Shown piece by piece: positions 1-47,489 of a DNA stretch of 47,489 bases. Position 1 is the stretch's first letter; each line of letters begins with the position of its first letter. Origin of the DNA: a virus; the IMG/VR virus record IMGVR_UViG_3300048929_000021, positions 1 to 47,489 of that record; one strand, written 5' to 3'. Position numbers and translations under genes: made by a program. Below the pieces are notes generated by a model. It saw only the letters and a list, made by a program, of their open reading frames with translations, did no database searches and was not told where the DNA came from.

Positions 1-126
1 AAAGAGTACGTATATCCTGACTGCAAACCACTGCACGACTGATGAAGCAGCACCTGACTCCAAGCGTGGTTATGTCGTCATCGACAACAAGGAACGTGGT
101 AAGTTGATCGATACAAGTCAGCTTGT
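1..126. repeat. Left copy of 126-bp terminal direct repeat
   Basis: Bases 1-126 are identical to 47347-47472. The protease gene runs through the repeat in frame from the right end of the window to the left end. This suggests that the sequence is a circular or circularly permuted genome cut inside a gene, leaving an overlap, rather than a true terminal repeat. The unique length would be about 47.35 kb. Confidence 0.9.
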
Positions 127-677: not shown

Positions 678-807
678 GGACCAAGACGACGACAAGACAT
701 CTGCTGAACAGTACTTTCACTACGGTATTTATTGTGGTATTGGATTGGGAGTACTGACAGCAGGTTTTCTCTACTTGATAAACATATTGGAGCAGTCCAT
801 TAAGTGA
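670..807 (+). CDS. Small single-pass membrane protein (45 aa)
   Basis: The ATG at 670 overlaps the previous stop and the frame ends at 807, overlapping the GTG start of the primase gene. The product has an acidic, soluble N-terminus (TEDQDDDK) and one hydrophobic helix at about residues 19-39. No family is recognised. Together with the preceding 32-residue protein it forms a pair of tiny membrane proteins between the exported protease and the replication genes. Confidence 0.6.
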   Translation: MTEDQDDDKTSAEQYFHYGIYCGIGLGVLTAGFLYLINILEQSIK

Positions 808-2369
808 CAACAAAATTTAAGGAAACGGGTTTGCCGTGTCCTTGTGGAGTCTCCAGCGACGCGTATTGTATCGATCACGAAGGTGGAGACTTCTGCTTTT
901 CATGTAGCAAAAGCCCGAGTAAAAAATTTTCAAAAGAGAAATACATAGATTTGGACATTTCTGAAAACGATATTGTTACAGCCGAGTATGTCCCTCATCG
1001 TGGACTATCTCAGAAGACACTAGAATTCTTTGACGTCAAGACGAAACTTGTAAATGGTATACCACTTGAATGGGGATTTCCCTACCCAAATGGTGCTTAC
1101 AAGATCAAACGAGTCAACCCGAAATCAAGGAGCGACAAGTATGTCTGGAAGGGTGAAGCGAACACAGCGGGTCTTTTCGGAGCAGACCGTTTCCCAGCAG
1201 GTTCGAGAGAATCGATCACGATTACAGAGGGAGAACATGACGCCCTCGCGATCAGAGAAGCCGTCGGAGACAAGACTGCCGCAACTTCAGTTCAATCAAG
1301 TTCTACAGCGCTACGAGATTGTGATCTAAATCGTGCGTATATCAACTCATTCGACAAGATTATACTGGCTTTCGACAACGATGAAGCGGGGAAAAGTGCC
1401 CTCAAGAAAGTTGTCTCATCGGGATTGTTTGATTTTAATAAAGTCTATTATATCCCCTTCGACCGTCACAAGGATGCGAATGAGTACCTCGTGGCAAAGG
1501 AACGAGATGAACTTCTCAAGGTCTGGAAAGCTTGTAAGAAGTACACACCAGACAATATTATCTCGACTTTCAACGAGATTTCCGAAGCTCTTAAGGAAAA
1601 CAGGGAAGATGAGATTGGTACGTATCCGACGGACCGACTCAACGACATGCTCTATGGCTTTTATCGAGGACAGGTGGTGCTTGTCAAAGGGCTTGAGGGT
1701 ATAGGCAAGACTGAGATATTCCGACTGATGGAGTTCCATCTTCTAAAGACGACAGATTGTAAACTCGGTCTGATCCATATGGAAGAGGATAAGGCCACAA
1801 CGATCAAGGGGGTAGCGACCTATGAATTGGGCGTTCCCTGTAACCTCCCAGACACTGGCGTTTCTGAAGAAGATGTATTACGAGGATATCGTGATGCCGT
1901 CAAAGGTCGAGAGGATCGTGTCTACATTTACACTATGTTTGGTGGCGATGATCCTGACGATGTCCTCGATAGCATTAGATTTCTTGTGGCTTCTGGTGGT
2001 GTCGATATTGTTTTTCTGGACCATATTACGATGCTTGTATCAGGTGTCGAAGAAGGTGATGAACGTCGCAAGCTCGACTATATCTCGACTAAGCTGAAGA
2101 AGATGGCCAAAGAGTTAAAATTCTGTCTCGTCATGATTACTCATGTCAATGATGATGGACAGACGAGAGGTTCCAGAATGATTTCCAAGATCGCTGACAC
2201 GATGATTAATCTTAATCGTGACCTTACCGCTGACGATGAAAATGATAGGAACACGCTTTGGATGACAATCGAGAAGAACCGATTTACTGGCAGGACTGGT
2301 AAGGCAGGTGGATTGTTCTTCAATACGAATACGTTCAAGCTAGAGGAAAGTCATAGTGAACAACTTTGA
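804..2369 (+). CDS. T7 gp4-like primase-helicase
   Basis: This bifunctional replication protein (521 aa) unwinds duplex DNA at the fork and makes primers for the lagging strand. An N-terminal zinc-binding module has Cys12, Cys14, Cys22, Cys31 and Cys34. A TOPRIM primase core follows, with TEGEHDAL (Glu142) and DND (191-193). A linker leads to a RecA/DnaB-type hexameric helicase with Walker A GLEGIGKT (296-303) and Walker B IVFLDH (Asp406). The length is close to T7 gp4 (566 aa). The start is GTG at 804, overlapping the previous stop by 4 bases. It lies upstream of the DNA polymerase and SSB genes, as expected for a T7-type replication module. Confidence 0.95.
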   Translation: MTTKFKETGLPCPCGVSSDAYCIDHEGGDFCFSCSKSPSKKFSKEKYIDLDISENDIVTAEYVPHRGLSQKTLEFFDVKTKLVNGIPLEWGFPYPNGAYKIKRVNPKSRSDKYVWKGEANTAGLFGADRFPAGSRESITITEGEHDALAIREAVGDKTAATSVQSSSTALRDCDLNRAYINSFDKIILAFDNDEAGKSALKKVVSSGLFDFNKVYYIPFDRHKDANEYLVAKERDELLKVWKACKKYTPDNIISTFNEISEALKENREDEIGTYPTDRLNDMLYGFYRGQVVLVKGLEGIGKTEIFRLMEFHLLKTTDCKLGLIHMEEDKATTIKGVATYELGVPCNLPDTGVSEEDVLRGYRDAVKGREDRVYIYTMFGGDDPDDVLDSIRFLVASGGVDIVFLDHITMLVSGVEEGDERRKLDYISTKLKKMAKELKFCLVMITHVNDDGQTRGSRMISKIADTMINLNRDLTADDENDRNTLWMTIEKNRFTGRTGKAGGLFFNTNTFKLEESHSEQL

Positions 2370-4876: not shown

Positions 4877-5033
4877 CCTAGAACCAATTTCGGGAACGAT
4901 TGTAGCGAACCAGATTGTTCGTATGCGTTCTACGACAGTTGGAAATTACCATACAGTCATCACCTTGGTAAACAATCAAGATATTTTTACAGAGAAGACA
5001 ATCGACGAATTGAAGGTTCTAATTAATGGCTAA
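4863..5033 (+). CDS. Hypothetical protein, 56 aa
   Basis: The ATG at 4863 overlaps the previous gene, and the stop overlaps the start of the single-strand binding protein gene. The product looks like a small beta-rich domain (TIVANQIVRMRSTTVGNYHT...). No family is recognised. The tight overlaps on both sides support it as a real gene. Confidence 0.65.
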   Translation: MTFIDLEPISGTIVANQIVRMRSTTVGNYHTVITLVNNQDIFTEKTIDELKVLING

Positions 5034-12694: not shown

Positions 12695-15600
12695 TTAGTT
12701 TCCTTCGTGAGCAGCAGAGATTGCGTTTCTCTTAGCTATACGTTTGTTGATAGTATCAGTAGCCTGTTGAGTAAGAGGCTTTGTAGACAATGCCCTAGAG
12801 CCTGCCTGTAGCATATCAGTCATACTCATATTGTTTTCACGAGCCAATTGCTTACTCTTAGAGAAGTAGTATTCAGCAGAGTCTTCATCACCTTGGTTGA
12901 TAGCATCCATACCCTTAGATACAAGAAGAGAATAATTCTTCTGGACTTCTTGTGTCGACTCTTTGTTGTTCTTCATGACAGCCAGCTTAGAATAAGCATC
13001 CGAGACAGATTGCAGTTGAGCACCAGAGAAGAACGAAGCAACCGCTTCAGCAGTCGTAGGATTAGCAAGTAATGTACCATCCTTAGACAGATAGCGATGG
13101 GTATTGATAGCTTCCCACATCTTGTCAAAGCTCTTGACCGAACCGATAGTCTGGAACGGAGCAAGAGAGTCTTGGACTAGAACAGGCCATGTAGTAGGAT
13201 TATCCTTATTAAAGATATCCATGACTCCTTGAGCGAATGTAGCAACACTAGACAGAGTATCACCCAAAGTAGTATTGGATGCACCAAGGACTAGCTGTTG
13301 CCATGTCAAGTCACTATTAAAGAGCTGACGTATTTGTTCGACACCATTAGGACCATACGAGTTACCGAAGTCAAGTCGTGCACCAGTCATCGCATTAAAG
13401 ATAACAGGCATGACACCGTTGACCGCATTATCGAGAGCCGTATTATTCTGGACATCGACACCGTGGTCAGCCAGAAGTTCATGGACCCAAGACTTAGCAG
13501 GGAACAGAGTAGCACCACCAATAGCAGCAGGAGCGCCATACATGACAGACATCATCGTCATGACACGAGCTTTCTCTCCAGCAGTCAGTTTACGACCAGA
13601 CTTGAAGATACCACCATCCCAGAGCTGTTCAAAGAACCTAGCTTGATAGCCCATGAACTGAGTAGCAAGACTAAGACCTTTAGTAGTCTGCCATTGGGCA
13701 AACGAATCTCTCGTCATATTACCAGTCAAGTCCTTAGCCCTCTGAAGGATACGGGACTCATCGAAACGAGTCAGTTCCTTGTTCGGATTAAGAGTACGCC
13801 ATTCCTGCCAAGCAGTAGGATAAGCAATATCACGACTGATCTGTTCACCCATATTGAAAGGAGTATTACCAAACTCGACTGCCTTACCAAGCATACCATT
13901 CGATAGTGAACGAGGACGGAAGTCATCGAAATAGCTTCTAGAAGACACAGTCGAGAAACCAGTCCTCTTATAGCTATCAATCATCTTCAGATAGTCTTCA
14001 TGATCCCAACCGTGGATACCATCGAATTTCTTCAGGAGTCCACGAAGGACGACTTCGTTATCAGTCCAGTTAGCAAGGTTCGTAATAAAGGCACCACGAA
14101 GGGCTTTCAGTCCTGCTACAGGAGAAGCTGCCAGAATGACAACTGCCTGTGATGCCTGAGTAAACAGACTCTTAGGATTAAGCATCCCAAGGTTCTTTAC
14201 AAACGTAGCCGAACGTAGGAAAGACGGAGCATCCTTTGCAAGATAAATCCCTTTCTCGACGACTTCACGCCATTGCTGGGAACCAGTTATATCATACGTC
14301 TTGGAGAGAACTTTCTCGATAGCATTATCCCAAGCTGTAGCTTCAGGAGAACGATGCATAGCAAAGGCAGTAATAGCCTGAGCTGTACTCTTGGCAATCG
14401 AGACCTGACCATCCTTAGCACCAGCCTTGAAGACAGGATTGAACATATAGTACAAAGGATTTGCAGCAAGCTTCTTAGAGTCTACATCGAGTAGATTACC
14501 AAACTGTTGAGTCCAGTCTGCTGTACTCTTAGTGATATAATCATTCATGACTCGGGTATTCACCATGTCAGACATAGTGTTCCTGAGAGTATCGAATGGA
14601 TCGAGCAAGCTTTCACCATCAGATCGAGCGATGACATCGTTCTCTGCCTTCAGGACATCGAGTGCGGTCTCACTCTTCTCAGTCAAATATTTACCCTTGA
14701 TAGAGTTAAATGGATTGTGTTCACCACCAAGACTATCAGAGAAGTTATCTTCACCGAACAATCGCTTATAGTCGATTACATCTGACGTCCTCTGTCCAGT
14801 CCTTGTAAAGACAAATGGATGATTGACATCGATATCTCCCTTGGCTACACGAGACATGAACTCTTGATAAGTAAATGGAGTCTTAGTCTCGATGAAGTTC
14901 TTTGCATTAGGAGACTGTTCACGGACGAGGTTTCTAGCCTCATTCATGATGTCGACCATTTTCTTAGCCTGACTCTCGGACAAAGCCATACCGAATGCAC
15001 GATCACCTTGTAGACGAGTAACACCATCACGTCCCTTAGACAGGATACCCTGTTTCAGGAAGAATCCCTTACGATAGTCGTAATGACCACCAGCCTTGTA
15101 TGGCAGAGGATCAGGACGGACGTTATCACGCTTAAAGTTCTTAAGTACGTAGTAGTTACCATCTTCACCAAGAATGACTTTGTAACCCTTCTTAGCGACG
15201 AGGTTGGCATTGATCTCAGAACGAGCTTTACCAAACTGTTCAGTCAGGACACCATCAGCGTCCTGAACGATTACACGAGTCCGACGATCCAATCCCGGTG
15301 GAATTTCATCCTTGACAATACCATTCATATCACGAGGAATAGAAGTCTCATCAGCTTTGAATTCACGGAAGCGAATACGTTCAGCACCCAGATCAGTCAA
15401 CTGCTTTCTGACATCAAGATTTCTAGTCACATAATCAAGATCGTTCAGAGTTCTATACGTATAGTAACCAGCATAGTGATCGTCAGCAGGAGCATGACCG
15501 TTTAGATTACGGAATTCAGTCTCAAAGTCATCGACGTTATCAAACCATTTCTGGTTAGTACGATTTGACTTTAGGACTTTACCAAGCTCATCATACCACT

Positions 15601-17428: not shown

Positions 17429-17448
17429 GAAATATTTCCTTAATTAGA

Positions 17449-17982
17449 TTAAGCGAAGAGATACGTACCAAGCTTACCAATCTGATCTTGGTTTTTGACG
17501 AGTGCGCCACCAAACGATGACAGACCAGCACCAGTCGATGCAGTAGTACGACCAGCAGCTTCCTGAGCGTTAGCATCAAACATTTGTGCTCCAATCCTTT
17601 GACCAGCAAACGAACCCTGAAGGTTCTGACCAGTCTGACCAGAAATCTGAGCCTGACCACCAGCTAGACCAGAAGAGTCAAGAACTCCCTGAGAACCAGC
17701 ATTCGATACAGCAGTAGCACGAGCAACCTGAGACTGACGTATGATACTACGACGCTGACGCATCGAGTCCATATTCATCTGAGCTTCTCTGAGTTGTTCT
17801 TGTTTCTTCTGAGCATCAGCAGCAGCTCGGGCACCTGAAGCTTGTAGAATAGTACCACCGATTGTGGCAGCAGTACCAATAGCACCAGCTACAGCTCCGA
17901 GGCCACTAGCAGCACCTCCAGCCGCACCTGTACCAGCAGCCGTAGCTCCCAGTGCTGTCAATAGTGAAGTAAATAGAGCCAT
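17449..17982 (-). CDS. Internal virion protein (T7 gp14-like)
   Basis: The 177-aa product starts at ATG 17982 (AAAGGAA about 8 bases upstream; a TTG lies one codon earlier). It has an Ala/Gly-rich hydrophobic N-terminus (residues 3-45), then a Gln/Arg/Lys-rich helix (AADAQKKQEQLREAQ) and a Ser/Gly/Gln-rich tail. This matches T7 gp14-type ejection proteins, which enter the outer membrane. The start overlaps the stop of the acetyltransferase gene (TGATG). Confidence 0.75.
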   Translation of the reverse strand: MALFTSLLTALGATAAGTGAAGGAASGLGAVAGAIGTAATIGGTILQASGARAAADAQKKQEQLREAQMNMDSMRQRRSIIRQSQVARATAVSNAGSQGVLDSSGLAGGQAQISGQTGQNLQGSFAGQRIGAQMFDANAQEAAGRTTASTGAGLSSFGGALVKNQDQIGKLGTYLFA

Positions 17983-18416
17983 CAAGAAAATTCCTTTACG
18001 TATGATTGCTCAAGCAATTTATAACCACGTTTTTCATAAAATTTAGAAAGGTCAGTCACCGATGGAAGCATTGCGACTTGGCAAAGGCTACATCCTACTT
18101 TTCTCGACCATATTTCATATGCATCCAGAAGAAGTAGTGAGTCTCGTTTGCCACGACATTCTGGGTTTACCCACCAAGCTACCTCTGTGGAAACTTTGTG
18201 GTTTGAGAACGGTGCTTGAGACGCAAATGCGATTAGCATACCGTGATCTGACAGGAGAATCATTACAGACGTTTTATCTTGCAGATAGGCCTGAAACAAT
18301 TGCATACATCGCAACTCAGAAAACTCAAGTACTTGATATGGAGACGCTTCATGAAACTTTCTCGCCATTTGTATAATGAGTGGAAAGTCGTCTTCAGTAG
18401 CTAATCTTATTGTCAT
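17982..18416 (-). CDS. GNAT-family N-acetyltransferase
   Basis: This 144-aa enzyme has the GNAT order: N-terminal IRLATEDDFPLIIQMARKFHE, a central strand EVAWWVNPECRGK with the acetyl-CoA pyrophosphate loop (a weakened R-x-x-G-x-G), and C-terminal KFYEKRGYKLLEQSYVK. ATG 18416 is chosen because GGAG lies just upstream. Single GNAT genes among tail and core genes occur in other T7-like phages; the substrate is unknown. It may acetylate a virion or host protein. Confidence 0.85.
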   Translation of the reverse strand: MTIRLATEDDFPLIIQMARKFHEASPYQVLEFSELRCMQLFQAYLQDKTSVMILLSDHGMLIAFASQAPFSNHKVSTEVAWWVNPECRGKRDSLLLLDAYEIWSRKVGCSLCQVAMLPSVTDLSKFYEKRGYKLLEQSYVKEFS

Positions 18417-18431
18417 AGACACTCCGTGTCA

Positions 18432-20474
18432 TCAAGGTACTTGACTCGCTGTCTCGAAGCCTGCCCAAGCCACAATAGTAAAGGGCTTACCAGCTTCATT
18501 AAAGAATTTGAACTGCAATGCTCTACCGTTACCACGCATCTTTAGTTTAGATCGTTGGTAATTTCTGTAACCTAGATAACGATAAATCTGCTGAGGATTT
18601 GTAAATCGTCCAGTCAACTCGTCGTTAGCATAATCCCAGATACCTTGGACAAAACAAGAAGCCTGAGCTACGTATGGTTCTGTCAAGACAGTAAGATAAT
18701 TAGTTTCGAATTTATTCAGAAGATTACCACGAATTCTATATCCAGTTATAAATGAACAAGAGACTGGAGTATTATCTGACGTTATAAAATCTACAGGTGA
18801 CTCATTAATATACTCACCGAACGTCATGTTGCTACCACTCAAGACAGCGAATTTGAACGTACGAGATTTTTCTACAATTAATGATACGACACCAACTATC
18901 TTATTACTACCAGTCGGTAAAGATAATGGATAGAATGCATTAGTCAATGTATCAAAGACTAGGACTCTATCGAAGTATGTCGTATTTCCAGTCGTACTGT
19001 AGAGCCAATAGATAATATTCTGTTGTTCGTTGTACTGACCCTTGGCTGTCATCTTTGAGACTGATGGTATAGCATCATAGAATCGTTGGATGGTCGTGGT
19101 AGTCAAATTATTGACTGAAGACGAAACACCACTCTGATCCTTTTGGAGTGCATAAATACCTTCGTAGTTCCACCAGATAGGCATACCACCGATATCGACG
19201 ATAGTCGTGCGACTCAGTGCAGGGAAAGATGAGACTTTAGTTACCGTATAGTCAGTAGCCTTAAATGGAGCATCGATAGTTCCAGAGATAGTCCAGACAC
19301 CATTGCTAGCAAAGATATATAGACTCTGACCAATGACCTTCATATCAATGATATTGTTGATATCCTGAATCTTTACTGTACCGCCATCGGTAGCCAATAG
19401 ATCGAAGTAGTCCTTTGAGGTCGGATCGTTTGCCTGATAGCATTTACCGAAGTCAGGGTCTTTCTGAATAGTCTGGGAGAAATAGACAGTACTAGAATAA
19501 CCAGATGCTCCAATACCGGCATAGAATGTACGACCAGCATAAAAAGCAATGACTGATGGACCGTATCCGTTCGAACTCGTCTCAGTCACACCAGAGATGC
19601 CAGAAAGAGATGATCTATTCGTGCTTAGCGCATTAAGGATATAATGTCCTTTAGGAGCTGGTGTGTTACCAAGCAATGCCGTATTAGCTATAGCAGTAGC
19701 TGGAGGATTGAACTGATCCGTACCAGTCGATGCACCAGAAGTATCTGGGGTCGTGTAGTACCACCAGAAGTCAGCGTTAGATGGGTAATTACCTTCGTCG
19801 CTATGCCATGAGTCATAGACTTGAACTGTGCCGCCACCAGCATGCTGTGTAGTAGCATACCAACCTTGGTTAAAGGTATTGTACTTATGGGCAGCAGTCT
19901 CTACTGTAGGACGATCTGAGGTCTGTAAACCATCATCGACTCCTTCGAAATCTCTAATCAATAATTGAATACCGACAGCAGTAATACTATCTGTCGAACT
20001 ATTATAAGAGATATAAAATGGAGTGCAGTTAGGGTGGGCTACGAATAGATAGCCACGACCAGAAGAAAAGGAACAGGAATTAGCAGCTACTACACCAATC
20101 GTAAAAGCAGGGTTTCTAGCACTGTTCAAATCATAAGTAAAACTCTTATGACCTGTCGAGAGTGGTTGATCGAAGGAAGACTGATAGAAATTCAGATACC
20201 GACCAGTCTGAGTGACAACAAATGTCAGCGGACTATTTTCAGTCACTGTCTCCCAAAGGTATTCTCTATAAACACCTGATGTATCTAAGACCGTATTCCA
20301 AGAGTAACTAGCCTCATAATCAAGACCGGGACGAGTCTTTGCTCTACCAGTTCTATCATAGATGACATCAATAGTTTGAGTGACCGAATTTTCAGGGGAA
20401 TTAGCACCAGTTACTTCAGTCAGAAGACCTTTGGTAAAATTATTCTCAATAGATACACCAACTGAACGGGGCAT
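18432..20474 (-). CDS. Tail tubular protein B (T7 gp12-like nozzle)
   Basis: The 680-aa product begins PRSVGVSIENNFTKGLLTE, which fits the start of gp12-type nozzle proteins, and has RPGLDYE and many beta-rich repeats after it. These proteins form the distal hexameric tail tube through which DNA leaves. The start ATG 20474 has AAGGA upstream. It follows the tail tube A gene as in T7, with one small gene in between. Confidence 0.85.
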   Translation of the reverse strand: MPRSVGVSIENNFTKGLLTEVTGANSPENSVTQTIDVIYDRTGRAKTRPGLDYEASYSWNTVLDTSGVYREYLWETVTENSPLTFVVTQTGRYLNFYQSSFDQPLSTGHKSFTYDLNSARNPAFTIGVVAANSCSFSSGRGYLFVAHPNCTPFYISYNSSTDSITAVGIQLLIRDFEGVDDGLQTSDRPTVETAAHKYNTFNQGWYATTQHAGGGTVQVYDSWHSDEGNYPSNADFWWYYTTPDTSGASTGTDQFNPPATAIANTALLGNTPAPKGHYILNALSTNRSSLSGISGVTETSSNGYGPSVIAFYAGRTFYAGIGASGYSSTVYFSQTIQKDPDFGKCYQANDPTSKDYFDLLATDGGTVKIQDINNIIDMKVIGQSLYIFASNGVWTISGTIDAPFKATDYTVTKVSSFPALSRTTIVDIGGMPIWWNYEGIYALQKDQSGVSSSVNNLTTTTIQRFYDAIPSVSKMTAKGQYNEQQNIIYWLYSTTGNTTYFDRVLVFDTLTNAFYPLSLPTGSNKIVGVVSLIVEKSRTFKFAVLSGSNMTFGEYINESPVDFITSDNTPVSCSFITGYRIRGNLLNKFETNYLTVLTEPYVAQASCFVQGIWDYANDELTGRFTNPQQIYRYLGYRNYQRSKLKMRGNGRALQFKFFNEAGKPFTIVAWAGFETASQVP

Positions 20475-38126: not shown

Positions 38127-38296
38127 TCTTTGTTAGTGTGTCTGACAAACAAAGACGGATTGAAGAGATTGATCGTATCACTATGAACGGTTCGTCTCTT
38201 GCAGTCGTCGATCTTGGTAACTTTTCACGTCTTCGTCATGAGCGTGCATGGCTTATCAATTCATTACGAAATCACAAACCGAAAGGAGTTGCTTGA
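38123..38296 (+). CDS. Hypothetical protein, 57 aa
   Basis: ATG 38123 overlaps the previous stop (ATGA) and its own stop overlaps the next gene (TGATG). The product is charged and partly helical (SDKQRRIEEIDRITMNGSSL, then HERAWLINSLRNHKPKG). No family is known. It leads directly into the amidoligase operon. Confidence 0.55.
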   Translation: MIFVSVSDKQRRIEEIDRITMNGSSLAVVDLGNFSRLRHERAWLINSLRNHKPKGVA

Positions 38297-39306
38297 TGGG
38301 TATGACAAGTTCTCACCAGCATTTGCGGAATGTCATGGACTCTATGGTCCTCGCTGCACAAGGTGTAAACTCGACACTCTTGATGGAACATGATGTCTAT
38401 AAGGGTCGTCATGGTATTAAAGGACAAGACTGGTCTTCTAATGCCAAGGACTATTCGTTCTGGCCACGATGGAACCAGCCATGTCAAGGTGGTGAGTTGA
38501 GGAAGTATGCGTCTGTCCACGGCAAAGAATGCACTCAACCTTTGAGTGGCAAGCCGGGTGATCTTCATCATCCATTTCCTGAAGGCAATCCGGTTGCTGT
38601 AGGCGTCAGATTCTACGGTGGTGCTTTCCAAGAGAAGTACGAAGACATTCTTCAGCACCTGTTCTCACAATCCAGCCCTTATCGTCGTGGTGTTGGTCAG
38701 GCTCGTCTTGTCAAGGACGGTTCAAATATCGTTGGTGCAGTCATCGAAGATACCAAGAAGGTCGACCCGACTGCGATGGTCAACCTGTTTCAGTTCATCA
38801 ATTCGTCTTTGGCTGGAGCTGGTATCAGTACTGTCCGTTCTATCATGGATGCAGGAGCGACGATCAACGAAGCTCTTCTGATACTCATGCTTGGCAGTTC
38901 AGTTCTCAACGCAATGTACAAGACGTACGAGTATTACTACGCATCCAAGATGTCAGTCCGTCGTTTCCTTGACGGTGATGTGAACGATTTGTCTCATGGC
39001 ATTTCGTTCTATGATCGTGGAGATTACAATCGTATCGATGTCTCGAAGCTCTTCTGGGAAGATGACACCGAGAAGGCAATGATCTGGACTCGTGACATGG
39101 CTGATCAAGTCGAGGTCGTGAATCCTTACGGATCAAAGTGGAAGGGTGATTTCATCAAGGACGTTCTTCCAGTAGCTCTCGAACGTATTCGTGAGAAGTA
39201 CAAAGAAGAACCGTCGGTCATGAAATCTGAGAAGCCAGTCAAGGGACCGAACGTCCAAGTCTTGAAGGCAGAGAAAGAAAAGTTGAAGGTCAAGAAGGTA
39301 GCCTGA
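38296..39306 (+). CDS. Unrecognised 336-aa protein heading amidoligase operon
   Basis: ATG 38296 has AAAGGAG 7 bases upstream, favouring it over an in-frame ATG 48 bases earlier. The N-terminal 100 residues are rich in His, Trp and Cys (DVYKGRHGIKGQDWSSNAKD, WPRWNQPCQGGELRKY). The middle has two hydrophobic helices around 170-215 (AMVNLFQFINSSLAGAGIST, LLILMLGSSVLNAM), and the C-terminus is Lys/Glu-rich. I do not recognise a family. It is separated from the amidoligase start by one base, so it is likely co-expressed and may be the substrate, carrier or scaffold of the pathway. Confidence 0.8.
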   Translation: MGMTSSHQHLRNVMDSMVLAAQGVNSTLLMEHDVYKGRHGIKGQDWSSNAKDYSFWPRWNQPCQGGELRKYASVHGKECTQPLSGKPGDLHHPFPEGNPVAVGVRFYGGAFQEKYEDILQHLFSQSSPYRRGVGQARLVKDGSNIVGAVIEDTKKVDPTAMVNLFQFINSSLAGAGISTVRSIMDAGATINEALLILMLGSSVLNAMYKTYEYYYASKMSVRRFLDGDVNDLSHGISFYDRGDYNRIDVSKLFWEDDTEKAMIWTRDMADQVEVVNPYGSKWKGDFIKDVLPVALERIREKYKEEPSVMKSEKPVKGPNVQVLKAEKEKLKVKKVA

Positions 39307-39307
39307 T

Positions 39308-40123
39308 ATGCAGTTGACGATTGGTACTGACCCGGAAGTCTTCGTCCGGGATTCTGCAGGAAAGTATTTTTCTGGTCATGATCTGATACCGGGGACGAAG
39401 GAGAATCCTCATCCGGTCAAGTCGGGTGCGATCCAAGTCGATGGTGTTGCTCTTGAGTTCAATACCTACCCGGCCAAGACCAAGGACGAATTCACCAAGT
39501 ATATCAATGATGTACTGCATGAACTTGAAGCAGAGTATAAGAAGTTTCGTCCTGATCTGACAATCGCAATGACTCCGACTGCGACGTTCGACAGGGAATA
39601 CTTCGACGCCCTTCCCGACAAGCCGAAGGAACTTGGCTGTACACCTGATTACAACGCCTATACAGGGGACCAGAATGAACCTCCCAGCACTGACGAACCA
39701 TTCCGGACAGGTTCAGGTCACATTCATCTGGGATGGACCGAGTGGGAAAACCCGCATGATGATGCTCACTTCAAGAGGTGCTGCGGCCTTGTGCGTCAGC
39801 TCGATGCTATCCTGTATCCGGCGTCACTACTCTGGGATAGTGATGACAAGCGTCGTTCCCTGTACGGAAAGATTGGTGCGTTCCGACCGAAGTCGTATGG
39901 GGTTGAGTATCGACCTCTGAGCAATGCGTACCTTGCTTCGAAGGAAACTCAGGGACGAGTCTTCGAAATTGCTATGCAGGCTGCTGACGATTTCTTTGGT
40001 GGTAGTATCTACGAAGAACGTCAGGAAGTGACTGACTTCATCCATCGTATTCGTTCGGGTGAAAACCTATCATCAAACGACGTTCAAGCATATTTGCTGA
40101 AAAACTTTGGAGGATGGCTCTGA
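39308..40123 (+). CDS. phiEco32-like COOH-NH2 ligase (amidoligase type 2)
   Basis: This 271-aa protein matches the glutamine-synthetase-fold ligases first noted in phage phiEco32: an opening LTIGTDPEVFVRD (Glu10), then GAIQVDGVALEFNTYPA (Glu50), GSGHIHLGW (His138, His140) and GVEYRPLSNAYL (Glu200, Arg202). These acidic and His residues are where the fold binds metal and ATP. Such enzymes activate a carboxylate with ATP and join it to an amine. The substrates are unknown. The next gene, a class I amidotransferase, overlaps it by one base. Confidence 0.88.
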   Translation: MQLTIGTDPEVFVRDSAGKYFSGHDLIPGTKENPHPVKSGAIQVDGVALEFNTYPAKTKDEFTKYINDVLHELEAEYKKFRPDLTIAMTPTATFDREYFDALPDKPKELGCTPDYNAYTGDQNEPPSTDEPFRTGSGHIHLGWTEWENPHDDAHFKRCCGLVRQLDAILYPASLLWDSDDKRRSLYGKIGAFRPKSYGVEYRPLSNAYLASKETQGRVFEIAMQAADDFFGGSIYEERQEVTDFIHRIRSGENLSSNDVQAYLLKNFGGWL

Positions 40124-40731
40124 TGACCAAGAAAATACTAGTCCTAAAGGGCGACTCATACAAGGCCGTAGGAGAGATGTTTGCTCGTCATGGGTATGAG
40201 GTACTCTATGGTGTAGAAAACCTCTCACAGGCCGACGTCGTCGTTTTTACGGGTGGTTCTGATGTCTCCCCGTATATTTACGGTGAAGAACCTCATGGTG
40301 CTCGTGGTTGTGACCCGATCCGTGATGAATTCGAGAAGGGTATCTTCAATGAATATCCAACATCGAAAGTCAAGATCGGTATCTGCCGTGGTGGACAGCT
40401 TCTGAACGTCCTGAATGGTGGGAGGATGTTCCAAGATTTAGGTCTGATCACAGGTATAGTCCCTGTTTTCGACACCGAGAATGGTTACATCGATGTTCTG
40501 GTCGATCATCACCAAGGTATGGAATCAAATCCGCCAGAAGCGCTTGGTTGGGGTGCATGTGCTTGGCATGAACTAAGGAGTGATCTTTATTGGCCTGACT
40601 ATGCAATTTTCTATCCCAAGACGAAGTCGTTCTGCTTCCAGCCCCACCCTGAATGGGGTCACAAAGGGACTGAAGACTATTTCTTTGAACTCCTTGAACG
40701 ACACGAGGTGTTGAATGATTCTGGAACCTGA
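40123..40731 (+). CDS. Class I glutamine amidotransferase / gamma-glutamyl hydrolase-like
   Basis: ATG 40123 is chosen because AGGAGG lies 9 bases upstream; ATG 40114 has no room for a site. The 202 residues carry a full triad: Cys88 in GICRGGQ, His175 and Glu177 in FQPHPEWG. The GICRGGQLLN elbow is closest to PuuD-type (C26) hydrolases that cleave gamma-glutamyl amides, rather than to synthetase subunits. In this operon it could supply ammonia or trim gamma-glutamyl bonds made by the ligases. The overlaps on both sides (TGATG; 17 bases) imply coupled translation. Confidence 0.9.
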   Translation: MTKKILVLKGDSYKAVGEMFARHGYEVLYGVENLSQADVVVFTGGSDVSPYIYGEEPHGARGCDPIRDEFEKGIFNEYPTSKVKIGICRGGQLLNVLNGGRMFQDLGLITGIVPVFDTENGYIDVLVDHHQGMESNPPEALGWGACAWHELRSDLYWPDYAIFYPKTKSFCFQPHPEWGHKGTEDYFFELLERHEVLNDSGT

Positions 40732-41167
40732 TAATTCTCAGACGTATTCCGTATGTTCGATTGCTCGTCTATCTGGGTTTGGTGAGACGACTGTCACTTA
40801 TTCAACAAATCTACCCTCAGTAAACAATCCTCAGGTTCCACTCGATAAGTTCAAAGAGCATATAAGGGATTTGATGAAAAAGTGGGATGCAGACGTAAAA
40901 GAAAATCGTTCTGGATATACTTGGTATCAGAGCGAGACGGGATATGTTCCAAAGCTGGCAGCGGTTATCGCATGGACTGCATCAGGTCAACAAGTGACGA
41001 TGTCTCATTTCCGTTCTCTTGGTTTCAAGGAGATTGGTCCGTTCGAGAAGCTGAAGCATCCTGATAGTACACTGACATTCTGGATCATCCCGGCTGACGA
41101 TCTGTGCAAGGCTGTCGGCTATATCAGTAAATACGATCCACGAACAGTGGAAGAAAGAGGTTACTAA
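40715..41167 (+). CDS. Unrecognised 150-aa protein in amidoligase operon
   Basis: ATG 40715 follows GAGGTG and overlaps the amidotransferase by 17 bases. The protein is soluble and alpha/beta, with TYSVCSIARLSGFGETTVTY near the N-terminus and HFRSLGFKEIGPFEKLKHPD and TFWIIPADDLCKAVGYI later. The second part vaguely recalls GNAT-like or double-psi folds, but no motif is convincing. Its place between two amidotransferase genes argues for a role in the same pathway. Confidence 0.75.
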   Translation: MILEPDNSQTYSVCSIARLSGFGETTVTYSTNLPSVNNPQVPLDKFKEHIRDLMKKWDADVKENRSGYTWYQSETGYVPKLAAVIAWTASGQQVTMSHFRSLGFKEIGPFEKLKHPDSTLTFWIIPADDLCKAVGYISKYDPRTVEERGY

Positions 41168-42090
41168 TGTGTGGCTTGGCAGGAGTTGCTGGACGGTCTC
41201 TGATCACGTCCGAAATCAAAGCGTTTAAAGACATCTTGTATGTCTCGTCTCTTCGTGGTCCACACTCGACGGGTGTCGCATCGGTAGCTTACGACAAGCT
41301 TATCGTACAGAAGATCGTCGATGATGCTCCGTGTTTCCTAGACCACTTCGGTTCGGAGAAAGGATATCTTCATCGATCAGGTCAGAGTCTTCTGATGGGT
41401 CATTGCCGTTGGGCTACCGTCGGTAAGGTTACGACAAAGAATGCTCATCCGTTCGATACTGGTCGGTTCATCGGTGCTCATAACGGTACTCTTGCAGACT
41501 TCAATTATCGTCCGAAGAAAGACGATACGAGGACTGACAGTGAACTGATGTTCAACGCGATGAATACAAAGGGTATCATTGATACTCTTCAGGGTCTATC
41601 GTACTGGTCAGCATATGCAGTCTCGGTCTATGAGAAATCGACGAAGAAGCTTTATCTCGCAAGGAACTCGGAACGTTCTCTGTTCTTTGCTGTCGATAAG
41701 AAGGCACCAATCGTCTATTGGGCTTCGGAAATCAGGATGCTGATGTTCGGTCTGATGGGTCATAAGATCGAAGCCGACTATTTCAAATGTGTTGCTGATA
41801 CGGTATACGAGTTCGATATCCCGACGATGACTCGTGACAACATGTTCAAGGAGACGAAACTTGAGCCAGCTCAACCCCCAAAGAAGTTTGAAAGTCAAGG
41901 TTACGTCTGGGATGAATTTGCTGGTGACTTTGTACCTCGGAGTCTCAGTTCTGTTGCGACTTCATCTTCGACATCAGTACAGAGCTATCCGGCGAACGAC
42001 CAGAACGTATATCCATTCTTGAACAAGGATCGTCCGAAGAGCGCTATTGGTGAAGTGCTGGACGAAGTTATGCAGTCTAAGGGAGACTAG
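41167..42090 (+). CDS. Class II (Ntn) glutamine amidotransferase
   Basis: This 307-aa protein begins Met-Cys-Gly-Leu-Ala, so removal of Met exposes Cys2, the N-terminal nucleophile of class II amidotransferases. Supporting residues are SSLRGPHSTG, GHCRWATVG (Arg81) and FIGAHNGTL (Asn106, Gly107), which bind glutamine in GlmS/PurF-type domains. The C-terminal third (after about 230) is Ser/Pro-rich and linker-like, with no sugar isomerase or synthetase domain. It may release ammonia for a partner ligase or act as an amidohydrolase. The start overlaps the previous stop (TAATG). Confidence 0.92.
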   Translation: MCGLAGVAGRSLITSEIKAFKDILYVSSLRGPHSTGVASVAYDKLIVQKIVDDAPCFLDHFGSEKGYLHRSGQSLLMGHCRWATVGKVTTKNAHPFDTGRFIGAHNGTLADFNYRPKKDDTRTDSELMFNAMNTKGIIDTLQGLSYWSAYAVSVYEKSTKKLYLARNSERSLFFAVDKKAPIVYWASEIRMLMFGLMGHKIEADYFKCVADTVYEFDIPTMTRDNMFKETKLEPAQPPKKFESQGYVWDEFAGDFVPRSLSSVATSSSTSVQSYPANDQNVYPFLNKDRPKSAIGEVLDEVMQSKGD

Positions 42091-42092
42091 TG

Positions 42093-42773
42093 ATGCAATT
42101 GGCATACAAACAATTTATGCCGAATCTTTATACGACGATGAAGGATTTGTCAGATCGTCTAGACAGTTGTCTGGTTCGGTACAAAGGCAAGCCTTATCGC
42201 TGCCGTATCAAGACCGAAAGTGACGGTTCACCTGTTTTGTTTCTGTACGAGCTGGTGAATAAGGGTGTAACTCCAAACGTCAGGTGCAAGCCTGATGATC
42301 CGTTCTTGGATATCTCTATCTTGGAGTCGATGTATGTCAACTTCAAGTACAGTAGTGATGAGTTCGATACACCACATCGTGCTTGTTGGATTACTAGAGG
42401 GACTGGCAAGAGTTATAAGTCGGCTACGTTTTCAGGTGGTAGTGTCGTCAAGACAATCGATGGTCATCAGTCGACTGAGTATAACTGTGACACTATCTTC
42501 TGGACTCAGTTTATGGAGGATGCAATCCTCGGTAAATACATGGCGTTGCCAGTAGTCTTGAGTGTCATGTCAAACATGAAGCGTCAGGAGTATGAAGCTG
42601 CTGTCAGCCAACGTGTCGCATTAAAGCGTGAGTCAATCGGGTTGATCAAGGTCTATATCGATACTCATATCGTCGGATGGATCGATCCTGATACAGGAAA
42701 GACAAAGATTACGAATGACGATCGTCGATGGGCAATCAATCGTATGCTCGCACCACTAGGATTTAAACTATGA
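42093..42773 (+). CDS. Unrecognised 226-aa protein in amidoligase operon
   Basis: ATG 42093 has GGGAG about 7 bases upstream. The product includes PYRCRIKTESDGSPVLFLYE, HRACWITRGTGKSYKSATFS and VYIDTHIVGWIDPDTGK. The GTGKS string resembles a P-loop but lacks the usual context, so I do not call it an NTPase. No family is recognised. It lies between the class II amidotransferase and the second amidoligase, and its stop overlaps the latter (ATGA). Confidence 0.75.
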   Translation: MQLAYKQFMPNLYTTMKDLSDRLDSCLVRYKGKPYRCRIKTESDGSPVLFLYELVNKGVTPNVRCKPDDPFLDISILESMYVNFKYSSDEFDTPHRACWITRGTGKSYKSATFSGGSVVKTIDGHQSTEYNCDTIFWTQFMEDAILGKYMALPVVLSVMSNMKRQEYEAAVSQRVALKRESIGLIKVYIDTHIVGWIDPDTGKTKITNDDRRWAINRMLAPLGFKL

Positions 42774-43858
42774 AAAATTTGTACGACATCTTTGGACGAG
42801 GTAGAAAGCTCAAGAAAGGTCTCGGAGAATTTGGTGTCGAGATTGAGACTGAGACCAAAAGTGCATCTGACTATCCTCGTGATTTCTTTGGTGAAGGACA
42901 GCCGAAGGAAACGATACATGGTCTCAAGATGTACTGGCATCCAAGGACTATCCCTGAATGGGTCGTGACTGAAGACGGTTCTCTTCGTGACTTCGGTCGT
43001 GAGTTCGTCTTTAAGAATCCCTTGAACTACCCACTCGCTATGGCTGCTCTACAGTCATGGGGTACGGCTGTCTCTGCTGTTAAATTCTCGAAGGATGCAC
43101 CAGCTACGTCAGTTCATGTCCATATGAATGTCACGGAGTTTACTCCGCTAGAGCTGGCAAACTTGTTGGTTCAATTGTTCTTCTTTGAGAATCTTCTGAC
43201 CGAATTCTCTGGTACAATTCGTCGTTCCAATACGTTTGCCAAGCCAGCAAGGTGTGCAGATCAATCGCTTGAGAATGTCATCTCACTCTTCGAGTCTATC
43301 GACAAGGGCAAGAAGAATGCAATCGTCTTCTCTGAACAGCATGTCAAGTATGGTGTCATCAATCTGGCAACCATTGCTGCGTATGGTTCAATCGAGGTTC
43401 GTTCATTCCGTGGGACGACTGACTATGTACAGATTCAGGATTGGTTGACGATTCTTAATCGGATATATAAGTTCTCACGAGTTCCGGGATTGACGCCATT
43501 CGAGTTCTATAAGACGTACCAAGACATCGAAGAAGAGATCGTTGATCGTGTCTTTGGTTCTGATGCAGAGAAATTGAAGTGTGCTGACTGGAGAGATTGG
43601 CTTCGTCGTAACGAGTTCTATCTTTCGAACCTGTCTACGTATATTCAGGATTGGAGTAAGTTCGGAAGTAAGTATGTAGACGAGCCTACTCCAAAGAAAA
43701 ATTTGGGGCAGCCTAGCGATTTCTTAAATCAGGTTAGTCCCCTTCCACTTGGAAATCAACTCTATCAACCTTGGGGTGATACAACATCCCCACCTGTTGA
43801 ACCAGTGACTGACGACGTAGACGAGTTCCCAAACTTTGACGATGATGAGGAAGACTAA
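42770..43858 (+). CDS. Amidoligase (glutamine-synthetase fold, second type)
   Basis: This 362-aa protein fits the putative amidoligase family: FGVEIETET (Glu24, Glu26), VVTEDGSLRDFGREFVF (Asp69, Glu78), SVHVHMNV (His116, His118) and GSIEVRSFRG. These match the metal and nucleotide residues of the fold. It differs clearly from the ligase at 39308, so the operon has two unrelated carboxylate-amine ligases of the same fold. The C-terminal 60 residues are acidic and Pro-rich, ending DDDEED. The start overlaps the previous stop. Confidence 0.88.
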   Translation: MKNLYDIFGRGRKLKKGLGEFGVEIETETKSASDYPRDFFGEGQPKETIHGLKMYWHPRTIPEWVVTEDGSLRDFGREFVFKNPLNYPLAMAALQSWGTAVSAVKFSKDAPATSVHVHMNVTEFTPLELANLLVQLFFFENLLTEFSGTIRRSNTFAKPARCADQSLENVISLFESIDKGKKNAIVFSEQHVKYGVINLATIAAYGSIEVRSFRGTTDYVQIQDWLTILNRIYKFSRVPGLTPFEFYKTYQDIEEEIVDRVFGSDAEKLKCADWRDWLRRNEFYLSNLSTYIQDWSKFGSKYVDEPTPKKNLGQPSDFLNQVSPLPLGNQLYQPWGDTTSPPVEPVTDDVDEFPNFDDDEED

Positions 43859-43892
43859 TGACCTACGGTCTTAACGCAAAGGGCCTTTGCTA

Positions 43893-44924
43893 ATGTGTAA
43901 TATTATTGTTCTAAAGCCCGGCCAGTTGCCGATCAAATCCGAATTCCAAAACATGTGCTGGAATAATTGGCACTCGTATGGACTTGTGACTAAGATCGAC
44001 AACAAGCTTGACATCGTCAAGAAGGTTCCTGAGAGTGGTGAAGTCGATGCGGATGAAGTCTACAAACTTCTGGAACGTGATCTGGAATTCGAACGTATCT
44101 TGCATGTACGTCACAATACAGCAGGTGCTACCAATCTGGAGAACTGCCATCCGTTCGATGTCTACTATAACCAGAAGCTAGGACGTCAGATCGTATTCAT
44201 GCATAACGGTACGATGTACGATTACAAGTCGAAGAAGAAAAGTCAGTACTCGACACAGGAAGTCGATGATCCTGATGGTCCTTCTGATACGAAGAACTTC
44301 GTAGACCGTATGTTGACTCCACTTCTGACACGACTGAACGGTGATATCGATGATATCTTTGTCCAGAAGATACTCGATAAGTTCTTTCCGATGGGTGGTA
44401 ATAAAGGCATCTTGATTGGTGCAGGTCAATGCTCTCTGATCTTCGGAGATTGGAAGAAGAAGAAAGACTTGGACGGCAATGAGTTCCTATCATCAAACGA
44501 CGACTACTTCGATACCCTTAAGCGAGGTCCTGAATATGACCGACGAGAGGCCGCGCGTAAAGCCAAGTTATCGACGGTTAAAACCAAACAGGAGGTCGAG
44601 CGCACAGTTGTCCCGCTCGGAGAGTTTCGTCTCGGTCACAAACATGGTTTCTACCAGCTCGAAGGAACGCTCAGAGACATCAACAACGACTGGAACATCT
44701 TTGATCGTGACACTGCGGTCGCGCTTGGGTATGCTACTAGGGACGAGCTAGCAGACATATACAAGGCTGGTGAAGAGAAAGTCGTCTATCTGATGGACTG
44801 GATGTTCGCTGAGTACGCGACGCTCTATGGTGAGCTTCTGGAGGCTCAGGAAGATAAGAAGAAGGGTGAGCTTGTCATCGCTTCTCTTAAGAAGGAACTC
44901 GAAAAGGAGAAGAAGGTTGGCTGA
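43893..44924 (+). CDS. Second Ntn amidotransferase-like protein
   Basis: I chose ATG 43893, with AAAGGG upstream, because it gives Met-Cys-Asn-Ile and hence an N-terminal Cys2, as in class II amidotransferases. Other matches are WNNWHSYGLVTKID, ILHVRHNTAGAT (Arg73), NCHPFDV and VFMHNGTM (Asn105, Gly106). The 343-aa protein is less canonical than the one at 41167. It could be a peptidase of the same fold, cutting an amide rather than transferring ammonia. The C-terminal part is helical and Lys/Glu-rich. Confidence 0.85.
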   Translation: MCNIIVLKPGQLPIKSEFQNMCWNNWHSYGLVTKIDNKLDIVKKVPESGEVDADEVYKLLERDLEFERILHVRHNTAGATNLENCHPFDVYYNQKLGRQIVFMHNGTMYDYKSKKKSQYSTQEVDDPDGPSDTKNFVDRMLTPLLTRLNGDIDDIFVQKILDKFFPMGGNKGILIGAGQCSLIFGDWKKKKDLDGNEFLSSNDDYFDTLKRGPEYDRREAARKAKLSTVKTKQEVERTVVPLGEFRLGHKHGFYQLEGTLRDINNDWNIFDRDTAVALGYATRDELADIYKAGEEKVVYLMDWMFAEYATLYGELLEAQEDKKKGELVIASLKKELEKEKKVG

Positions 44925-45618
44925 CAAGTCATTCTCTATGCCTTCGATTACAGGCGCACCTTGGGATGATGAAGAAGAAACAACTTGGAGTGATTTGATG
45001 ACAGAAAGTCTATCTCGTGATGACGTCGACAGGGTTCTTGGTCGTCCGAAGACGAAACGTGAAGAAAAGTATCTGGAGAATGATGTCAATCTTCTGGTCC
45101 AACTTGATCGAAGGATTACCAAGAAGACTCCTGATTTCCTTCAACTGAAGCTTCAAGATTTTATTCCGGTAATCGTCTATGGTACACTGAAGTACGAAGG
45201 TCTGTATCATGATATCTTGAAAGATGCACCTTTCGTAGGTGTCGGTCAGACAGTCGAACCGAAGTTCATCATGATGGAGACCCAGAGTTTTCCTGTAGTC
45301 TTTGAGGCTGATATGCACAACAAGGATGAACGGAATAAAAAGGGTAAGATTCGTGGTGAAGTCTACATGGTTGACGCCAAGACGATGCTACGTCTCGATG
45401 AACTCGAAGCAAATGGGTCGATGTACTCTCGCAAGAAGACATGGGTCAAGCTTATGGATCAGGGAATGTCTGGTGTTCTTCCGAGTATCGAGGCTTGGAT
45501 TTATATCGGACATCGTGATTTCTTCAAGGCAAGATACCTGAATAAGGTTAAGGCAACACATAATGGTCAGCATCTCGTCTTCGATTGGGATCAGACACAA
45601 ACGGTGATGTACGGCTAA
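44917..45618 (+). CDS. Gamma-glutamylcyclotransferase-like protein with N-terminal extension
   Basis: TTG 44917 is chosen for its AGGAG site; ATG 44938 has none. After about 80 residues of helical, charged extension comes a GGCT fold: PVIVYGTLKYEGLYHDIL (YGTL 88-91), FVGVGQTV, SFPVVFEA, IRGEVYMVD and LDELEANGSMYSRKK with the expected acidic residue. Members open gamma-glutamyl amides, releasing 5-oxoproline and an amine. In this operon it would remove what a gamma-glutamyl ligase adds. The start overlaps the upstream gene by 8 bases. Confidence 0.88.
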   Translation: MADKSFSMPSITGAPWDDEEETTWSDLMTESLSRDDVDRVLGRPKTKREEKYLENDVNLLVQLDRRITKKTPDFLQLKLQDFIPVIVYGTLKYEGLYHDILKDAPFVGVGQTVEPKFIMMETQSFPVVFEADMHNKDERNKKGKIRGEVYMVDAKTMLRLDELEANGSMYSRKKTWVKLMDQGMSGVLPSIEAWIYIGHRDFFKARYLNKVKATHNGQHLVFDWDQTQTVMYG

Positions 45619-45628
45619 GGAGGTCGAC

Positions 45629-46459
45629 ATGAAGGGTTACATTCTACGTCGTAAGGGTCTTGGTGCTACAAGTACCCCGATCATTGCAGAGATTCTTGAC
45701 TTCAAAGTCATCAATACGAATGAAGAGAAAGCCCCGACTGATGCTGATGTAGTCATCCGTTGGGGCACTACGAATGGTTCGTTCGATTGCAAGATTATAA
45801 ACAAGTCGAAGGCGATTGAAACGTCGTCTGACAAGAAATACTTCCGTGAGTTAATCCAGAAGGAAGGGTTGTGCCCGAGGACTTGGCAGAATATCACCGA
45901 ATTCTCGACTGATATCTATGGTGATTCATTTACCCCACAGAAGCCCGTACAGAGGGTTTTGATCCGTCCCGCTATCCATGCCCGATCTGAGGACATGTTC
46001 TTGTGTACGAGCCTGTATGAGGCAAATAAGGCCATTCAGAAGATCAATGGTCCATACTACATCTCTGAATTCGTTCAGAAGAAGAAAGAGTTCCGAGTAA
46101 TGGTCGTTTCAGGCAAGGTTGTCTGGGTCATCGAGAAGCATCCTAAGTCCGAAGAGGAAGTCTCTTGGGGTTGTGTCGAAGCAGGGAACTTTGATTATGT
46201 CGGTTGGTCCGAATGGCCTATTGAAGTGGTACGAAACGCTACCAGAGCCGTTGAAATCTCAGGTCTTGATTTCGGGGCAGCAGATGTCATTGTTGACCAA
46301 GAAGGAAAAGCGTACACTCTTGAAGTCAACACTGCACCTTGGCTGTCTCCATATTACGCTAAGAAAATCGGAAACGCCTTGAAGTGGCTTGTCGATGGAA
46401 AAGAAATTGAACAGAAGGAAATTACAGATTGGAAGAGTGCAATTCATCCTTCTTGTTAA
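45629..46459 (+). CDS. ATP-grasp ligase (RimK/carboxylate-amine type)
   Basis: This 276-aa enzyme has strong AAGGAGG before ATG 45629. The ATP-grasp layout is clear: a preceding N-terminal domain (DADVVIRWGTTNG), VLIRPAIHARSEDMFL, YYISEFVQKKKEFRVMVVSG, and the metal-binding C-terminus FGAADVIVDQEGKAYTLEVN ending NTAPWLS. Such enzymes form an acyl phosphate from a carboxylate and ATP and join it to an amine, as in Glu-tail addition by RimK. It is the last gene of the operon and gives the phage a third amide-forming enzyme. Confidence 0.9.
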   Translation: MKGYILRRKGLGATSTPIIAEILDFKVINTNEEKAPTDADVVIRWGTTNGSFDCKIINKSKAIETSSDKKYFRELIQKEGLCPRTWQNITEFSTDIYGDSFTPQKPVQRVLIRPAIHARSEDMFLCTSLYEANKAIQKINGPYYISEFVQKKKEFRVMVVSGKVVWVIEKHPKSEEEVSWGCVEAGNFDYVGWSEWPIEVVRNATRAVEISGLDFGAADVIVDQEGKAYTLEVNTAPWLSPYYAKKIGNALKWLVDGKEIEQKEITDWKSAIHPSC

Positions 46460-47175: not shown

Positions 47176-47489
47176 GACTCGACTAGGATTTTTTGCTTTT
47201 TGCTTTTTTGCAGGATTTGTTTCAAGTCTTGTGGGAGCGTGTGTATCTAAGGCTGATGAACTCGATACGTTCCAGAAGCAGGCTATCAACCCTGTTGTCC
47301 AGCTTGAGCGTAACTGCTCAGGTGTCGTAGTCGATATTGGTGACCCAAAGAGTACGTATATCCTGACTGCAAACCACTGCACGACTGATGAAGCAGCACC
47401 TGACTCCAAGCGTGGTTATGTCGTCATCGACAACAAGGAACGTGGTAAGTTGATCGATACAAGTCAGCTTGTTGTCGATGACGACATAA
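47168..47489 (+). CDS. Trypsin-fold serine protease, N-terminal part with lipoprotein signal (runs off end)
   Basis: ATG 47168 starts the protease completed at 2-586. The first 25 residues are FKTRLGFFAFCFF, a hydrophobic core, then LVGAC. This is a plausible lipobox with Cys25 as the lipidated residue; signal peptidase I cleavage just after is the alternative. The mature chain begins about VSKADELDTF and reaches CSGVVVDIG and the catalytic His in TANHC. True sequence ends at 47472; the last 17 bases belong to the fold-back tail. A phage-encoded exported serine protease is unusual. Confidence 0.88.
   Translation, partial: MFKTRLGFFAFCFFAGFVSSLVGACVSKADELDTFQKQAINPVVQLERNCSGVVVDIGDPKSTYILTANHCTTDEAAPDSKRGYVVIDNKERGKLIDTSQLVVDDDI
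47347..47472. repeat. Right copy of 126-bp terminal direct repeat
   Basis: Identical to bases 1-126. After base 47472 the sequence departs from 127 onward. Confidence 0.9.
47416..47489. repeat. Terminal fold-back (19-bp inverted repeat)
   Basis: Bases 47471-47489 are the exact reverse complement of 47416-47434, with 36 bases between. This is the pattern of a fold-back chimera at a sequence end, though a DNA hairpin terminus would look the same. Confidence 0.85.

Follow-up and report, generated by a model that had tools for sequence, protein, structure and literature searches.

The virus record IMGVR_UViG_3300048929_000021, analysed over its whole stretch of 47,489 bp (the window; 45% GC), carries towards its right end a cassette of ten plus-strand genes (38296-46459) that, with a little better than even probability in our judgement, encodes a cytoplasmic phage pathway in which gamma-glutamyl-type amide bonds are built and then trimmed during mid-infection. 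The sequences show that cassettes of this type combine three families of ATP-dependent carboxylate-amine ligases, one or two Ntn glutaminase domains, and peptidase C26 and/or GGCT-like proteins, all with intact active sites; a protein without a named domain, called U2 here, is obligately paired with the second ligase, and the cassette is conserved as one block. The points in favour of this reading are the enzyme families, their catalytic residues, a five-part core, the U2 pairing, the complementarity of C26 and GGCT, the lack of a membrane segment and the middle expression of the homologous block in phage PaP3. An earlier note on this DNA had described nine consecutive, mostly overlapping genes; the tight packing holds, since neighbours overlap or are separated by 1-34 nt, but the genes number ten:

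38296..39306, + strand: g1, U1 family, 336 aa, without a named domain; a Cys (C63, in a QPC motif) is near-invariant; homology to Rhizobium phage 032 (3.7e-34)
39308..40123, + strand: g2, phiEco32-type COOH-NH2 ligase (PF14395), glutamine-synthetase/GCS fold (Pfam 4.2e-7, PHROG 2.2e-70)
40114..40731, + strand: g3, GATase I, peptidase C26, gamma-glutamyl hydrolase-like (Pfam 3.6e-14)
40715..41167, + strand: g4, 150-aa protein with no assigned family (no Pfam hit)
41167..42090, + strand: g5, Ntn class-II glutamine amidotransferase domain with N-terminal Cys and without a synthase domain (GATase_6 2.7e-14)
42090..42773, + strand: g6, divergent member of the U2 family (E 2.6e-8 to a Rhizobium phage protein)
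42770..43858, + strand: g7, Amidoligase_2 (PF12224), second ligase of the glutamine-synthetase (GS) fold (Pfam 2.5e-7, PHROG 1e-37)
43893..44924, + strand: g8, second Ntn glutaminase-like protein, Met-Cys start (GATase_4 2.2e-9)
44917..45618, + strand: g9, GGCT/GGACT-like gamma-glutamyl cyclotransferase with an N-terminal extension, start inferred (GGACT 4.8e-16)
45629..46459, + strand: g10, ATP-grasp ligase, R2K/RimK-like (PHROG 'S6 glutaminyl transferase' 8.8e-24)

The enzyme families named in the earlier note were all recovered by Pfam or PHROG profiles, the ATP-grasp family through PHROG with its Pfam matches under the cut-offs, and loss of catalytic residues, named beforehand as a sign against the proposal, was not seen in the homologues. 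The first ligase (g2) scores 29.9 bits against PF14395 (curated cut-off 25 bits) and the second (g7), which overlaps the U2 gene by 4 nt, scores 31.3 bits against PF12224 (curated cut-off 22 bits), both with their catalytic residues present; residues E10, E50, H138, H140, E200 and R202 of g2 are kept in 149-150 of 150 homologues, and the metal and phosphate residues of the g7 family in 150-151 of 151. For g10, the R2K/RimK Pfam matches range from 1e-4 to 4e-3, a D-Ala ligase profile also matches weakly, and the thresholds of the R2K clade are missed (R2K_3, 22.5 vs 26.3 bits; R2K_2, 21.8 vs 26.2 bits); on its sequence the protein is classed only as an ATP-grasp ligase and not as an R2K member. 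The ATP/metal-site Arg, Asp, Glu and Asn of its family occur in 152-156 of 156 homologues, the last three in 156/156. The C26 protein g3 scores 53.5 bits (cut-off 20.5 bits) and its Cys/His/Glu triad is present in 112/112 homologues, the Ntn glutamine site (Cys, Arg, Asn-Gly, Asp) is kept in nearly all homologues of g5, and the catalytic Glu of GGCT is found in 54 of 58. The cassette is not a product of chance, because chance alone would yield about 0.04 open reading frames (ORFs) of at least 200 aa over the entire window, the catalytic residues are intact across 110-156 homologues and the gene order is conserved.

Relatives of the cassette were gathered from 11 GenBank phages, 80 IMG/VR loci reached through the first ligase, 79 reached through the second ligase and 10 GTDB contigs, and the ORFs of these loci were searched with iterated profiles; scanning viral contigs with the single proteins g1 or g2 gave no matches, profile alignments being required. 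The two ligase-based collections overlap in some contigs, and 98 loci are left after removal of identical second ligases. The core census covers 111 loci with adequate flanks, corresponding to 76 clusters at 70% first-ligase identity. Both GS-fold ligases, the ATP-grasp enzyme, at least one Ntn protein and U2 are present in 111/111 loci, the variable parts being U1 (95 loci), C26 (96) and GGCT (47), and the most frequent order is U1-C26-Ntn-ligase1-U2-ligase2-ATPgrasp. Both co-occurrence and gene order, proposed earlier as a check, hold among the relatives, where the cassette genes are not scattered. Relatives of the first ligase occur in 317 phage records and those of the second in 170, amidoligase cassettes thus being present in hundreds of phage records; the named hosts of first-ligase relatives are mostly Gram-negative. 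The first ligase has no match in plasmids, and its ten matches in GTDB genomes lie on contigs of metagenome-assembled genomes that are phage-like in appearance, judging by the part of them that was inspected.

Variants of the cassette were also observed. Of three loci in which the first ligase is present in duplicate, two carry two U1 genes; doubling of the first ligase is seen in L014, L015, L016 and L017, with a U1- plus a U1b-type gene in three of these four. Two ATP-grasp matches are found in L043, L049, L059, L136, L142, L145, L153, L154 and L163, several of them flanking the ligases upstream and downstream. The loci L102 (4439-10066) and L100 contain the first ligase, C26 and GGCT without U2 or Amidoligase_2 and may represent a minimal form of the pathway; in L102 there is also a gene for a 1123-aa protein that by eye resembles beta-type subunits of phage RNA polymerase.

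In 143/143 non-identical ligase1...ligase2 pairs located within 3 kb of each other (a distance that leaves out L018), U2 is encoded between the two ligases, and it overlaps ligase 2 by a median of 11 nt. Among the 39 GenBank records that match the U2 of phage CVT22, the informatively annotated ones place it beside an amidoligase or COOH-NH2 ligase. U2 seems to be tied to the usual form of Amidoligase_2, since L018, which has a divergent 564-aa form, has no detectable U2; a fusion of U2 with Amidoligase_2 in this locus was tested and rejected. From these gene arrangements, U2 is most likely a dedicated partner of Amidoligase_2. Its AlphaFold2 model is confident (pLDDT 89.6, pTM 0.85), with no fold match in the PDB at E<1e-3 and no relative in Pfam or PDB-sequence searches; its significant fold matches among viral models are all phage proteins of 181-263 aa with no assigned function, including the U2 of CW02. 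An EF-P/eIF5A fold was set aside, its weak matches having TM-scores of only ~0.2.

The U1 protein of the window type is homologous to the commoner U1b type (profile comparison probability 97.5%, E 5e-12; a control against U2 was negative), and its cysteine is the single near-invariant residue, found in 52 of 53 aligned members. The model of U1 is of moderate confidence (pLDDT 70, pTM 0.71), and this protein too gave no PDB fold match at E<1e-3 and no relative in Pfam or PDB-sequence searches. The earlier note had counted three unknowns; g1 and g6 are conserved families of the cassette, and g4 stays without a relative, its hidden Markov model having matched only g4 itself among 93 loci.

A predicted gamma-glutamyl remover is present in every cassette of the census. 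The 15 loci that lack C26 (12 clusters) all have GGCT, both being missing in 0/111, and this complementarity is significant on loci (Fisher 5.5e-7) and on clusters (2.7e-5). The proposal that bond makers are accompanied by breakers is borne out in that C26 or GGCT is found in 111/111 relatives. Given the complementarity, and by analogy with known removers, gamma-glutamyl removal may be an obligatory step for which either fold suffices. In loci with two Ntn genes, an Ntn gene is followed directly by GGCT in 8/8, and the two-Ntn state has a single origin on the ligase tree, within the window's own clade.

In the proposed pathway, the PF14395 ligase would join the gamma-carboxylate of glutamate to an amine, and the Amidoligase_2-U2 pair and the ATP-grasp enzyme would add further amide bonds, U2 perhaps being a subunit or a presenter of the acceptor. 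The Ntn protein would deliver ammonia from glutamine or cut a gamma-glutamyl amide, and C26 or GGCT would interchangeably take off the gamma-glutamyl group last, as in protect-deprotect routes. As acceptor, the leading candidates would be a precursor of peptidoglycan and a small protein's tail, with a small metabolite as a further possibility.

Several points weigh against this pathway. The ATP-grasp gene g10 falls under every Pfam cut-off, the role given to U2 is deduced from gene position, and the C26 and Ntn domains can alternatively be ammonia donors instead of trimmers. On the ligase tree, the C26/GGCT pattern corresponds to ~8 inferred C26 changes, and a phylogenetically independent test of it was underpowered, with just 3 supported pairs (p 0.5) and none that ran the other way. 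A product, substrate or activity of the cassette has not been demonstrated, and the cassette literature covered reports no product.

The window has genes for podovirus functions (head-tail adaptor, major head protein, tail appendage, primase/helicase and DNA polymerase) and is probably a complete genome, terminally redundant or circular, because its ends share a direct repeat that spans at least 126 bases, although the record ends may be classed as linear. The features concerned are:

1..126, no strand: direct terminal repeat, left copy; exact 126-base match to the right copy at 47347-47472
804..2369, + strand: DNA primase/helicase (PHROG 5.6e-105), first gene past the cassette across the terminal-repeat joint

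When the window ends are joined through this 126-bp repeat, the cassette adjoins the primase/helicase gene, and the same neighbour is found in the relatives L003-L013. Within the cassette, g8 starts at ATG 43893 (Met-Cys), and g9 probably starts at TTG 44917, which is preceded by AGGAG. Hydropathy revealed no membrane-like segment in any window protein.

Many cassette phages carry small genes inserted between the enzyme genes, and in at least seven lineages 6-19 small proteins per phage, encoded in among the cassette genes, have in common an acidic C-terminal tail that is specific to the lineage. The tail-bearing loci are L183 (CVT22), L344/L345 (RHph_I3_11), L003, L014, L030, L096, L105-L107, L186-L188 and L324, and the tails include LENE (CVT22), LLEENV (CW02), GDTEEDI-like (RHph_I3_11, L014, L105-L107 and L186-L188), NKEDWL (L096), EEDIWL (L030) and TSLEEYM (L324). 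The bodies of the tailed proteins are mostly unrelated (0-6 BLAST pairs of 21-105), and a GDxV motif near the N-terminus is present in about half of them vs 13/190 untailed proteins. Codons at identical tail residues differ about as often as codon usage predicts in 7/8 loci (e.g. 0.51 observed vs 0.50 expected), which argues that conservation acts on the protein sequence of the tails and not on a DNA repeat or a ribosome-binding site; repeats of ribosome-binding sites were rejected for these seven also because there are tails that no start follows, and CVT22 (0.28 observed vs 0.55 expected) was only partly cleared. In L018, eight small ORFs (10951-18538) have a longer GF[AG]KF[IV]xx[IV]E-like (GFAKFIxxIE) motif near the C-terminus.

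In CVT22, 19/19 tailed genes lie within 28.0-43.2 kb (L183 28002-43249), spanning the cassette, and no enzyme is tailed; in RHph_I3_11, 9/12 small genes are tailed in the cassette span vs 5/49 elsewhere (p 2e-5). In a primase-selected sample, in which the truncated L187 is counted as cassette-bearing, tails occur in 7/60 cassette loci vs 0/49 without cassette (p 0.016), an enrichment that is suggestive rather than firm because many cassette-less loci are short. The tails are not a universal substrate, since neither the small ORFs of the window nor most cassette phages have one; their role may be that of substrates, of docking tags or of tips that bind a hub, as the tip of the single-strand-binding protein (SSB) does. 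They were not described in the literature searched, a search that is weak evidence. Elsewhere in the window, a 184-aa protein with no PHROG match (5026-5580) ends in KKSDLPF, which resembles the tip of SSB.

The earlier note implied a phage precedent for the first ligase only, but the whole set has been described in RIO-1, phiEco32, 7-11, PA11, tf, LUZ24, PaP3 and CW02 under the name of a 'peptidoglycan modification' cassette or module (PMC5498523, PMC11945000), and has been annotated gene by gene in UFV-P2 (PMC3890496). In PaP3 the homologous block, in which ORF48 corresponds to the ligase and ORF43 to the ATP-grasp enzyme by the tf annotation, is expressed as middle genes (PMC4707531), which counts weakly against a role in virion maturation; the virion-protein and glutathione-like targets considered earlier have found no direct support. 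When phage FJK.R9 was subjected to directed evolution, both lines acquired missense changes in an amidoligase and an adjacent Ntn-type gene (PMC11450229), which suggests that the module is under selection.

Three other explanations of the cassette have to be weighed. The target favoured in print is peptidoglycan, a prediction according to which the ligases put unusual peptide linkages on cytoplasmic cell-wall precursors and thereby block superinfection or prepare lysis. Gram-negative peptidoglycan does hold gamma-D-Glu bonds, its precursors are cytoplasmic, and the named hosts are mostly Gram-negative. The peptidoglycan role is stated in PMC5498523, PMC10580990 and PMC11945000, which cite Iyer 2009 and Hardies 2013, and superinfection exclusion or lysis preparation is traced through them to these two works. 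We consider this target possible but rather doubtful: no direct test of it was found in the literature, U1 and U2 have no similarity to Mur enzymes, membrane or export signals are absent, and the tailed small proteins would be left unexplained. The ligases could instead modify proteins of the phage or the host at their C-termini, as RimK does with S6 and PafA with Pup, the targets in several lineages being the small proteins that share an acidic tail. The interleaving of tailed proteins with the cassette in CVT22 and RHph_I3_11, the conservation of the tails as protein with saturated synonymous change in 7/8 loci, and the enrichment in cassette loci are in line with this explanation, as is the proposal that R2K-clade enzymes are protein modifiers (PMC4431377). 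The window and most cassette phages lack tails, which could also be hub-binding peptides like the SSB tip, and no modification has been shown, so that protein tails are in our view an unlikely target. Its fuller form, a phage conjugation system in which ligases and trimmers act on the shared tails with U2 (perhaps U1) as adaptor or acceptor, and in which U2 or U1 would be the acceptor in the tailless window, is more unlikely still; if this proved correct, a new conjugation system encoded by viruses would have been found.

The combination of a GCS-fold ligase, an ATP-grasp enzyme and GGCT is also the logic of glutathione metabolism, and the cassette could make and recycle a glutathione-like gamma-glutamyl peptide, or mobilise amino nitrogen for phage growth. 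A glutaredoxin is encoded beside the cassette in RIO-1 and another is encoded in RHph_I3_11, and a nitrogen role has been proposed for the ZRK32 phage set (PMC10945688), although this link is correlative. Family searches showed no closeness to GshA or GshB, and three ligases plus two orphan proteins exceed what such metabolism needs, which makes it quite improbable.

The building and trimming pathway that we prefer can be compared with several known systems. Its core set is already known, and the window is a variant of the known podoviral cassette type, with which it shares the PF14395 ligase, Amidoligase_2, Ntn GATase and ATP-grasp enzyme in one block, both GGCT and C26, and a position before the primase/helicase in the replication region. 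It differs in that a second Ntn gene precedes GGCT, that C26-g4-Ntn separates the first ligase from U2 as an insertion, that the ATP-grasp gene is at the far end and that g4 is an orphan; U1 and U2 are not presented as core parts in the literature covered on that cassette. Added to the known cassette here are the obligate five-part core, U2 and U1 as standard parts, the C26/GGCT substitution and the shared tails, and the obligate partner U2, the widespread Cys protein U1, the ever-present gamma-glutamyl remover and the tailed small proteins offer testable handles. The gamma-glutamyl protect-deprotect routes PuuA/PuuD (putrescine), BtrJ/BtrG (butirosin) and EgtA/EgtC (ergothioneine) similarly team a ligase of the GS/GCS fold or of the ATP-grasp type with a remover from the C26, GGCT or Ntn families, whereas the phage set unites all these types with two orphan families, so that the likeness is one of analogy and not of membership. 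With the R2K-clade ATP-grasp enzymes (PMC4431377) the likeness consists of the R2K_3 and R2K_2 matches of g10, weak and under the Pfam cut-offs. Pup-PafA and RimK-S6 likewise employ a GS-fold (PafA) and an ATP-grasp (RimK) ligase, which act at acidic C-terminal tails; in contrast to these systems, the phage cassette has no Pup or proteasome context, and small proteins with a ligatable tail beside the ligases are found in relatives only, where the tails are lineage-specific, and are missing in the window.

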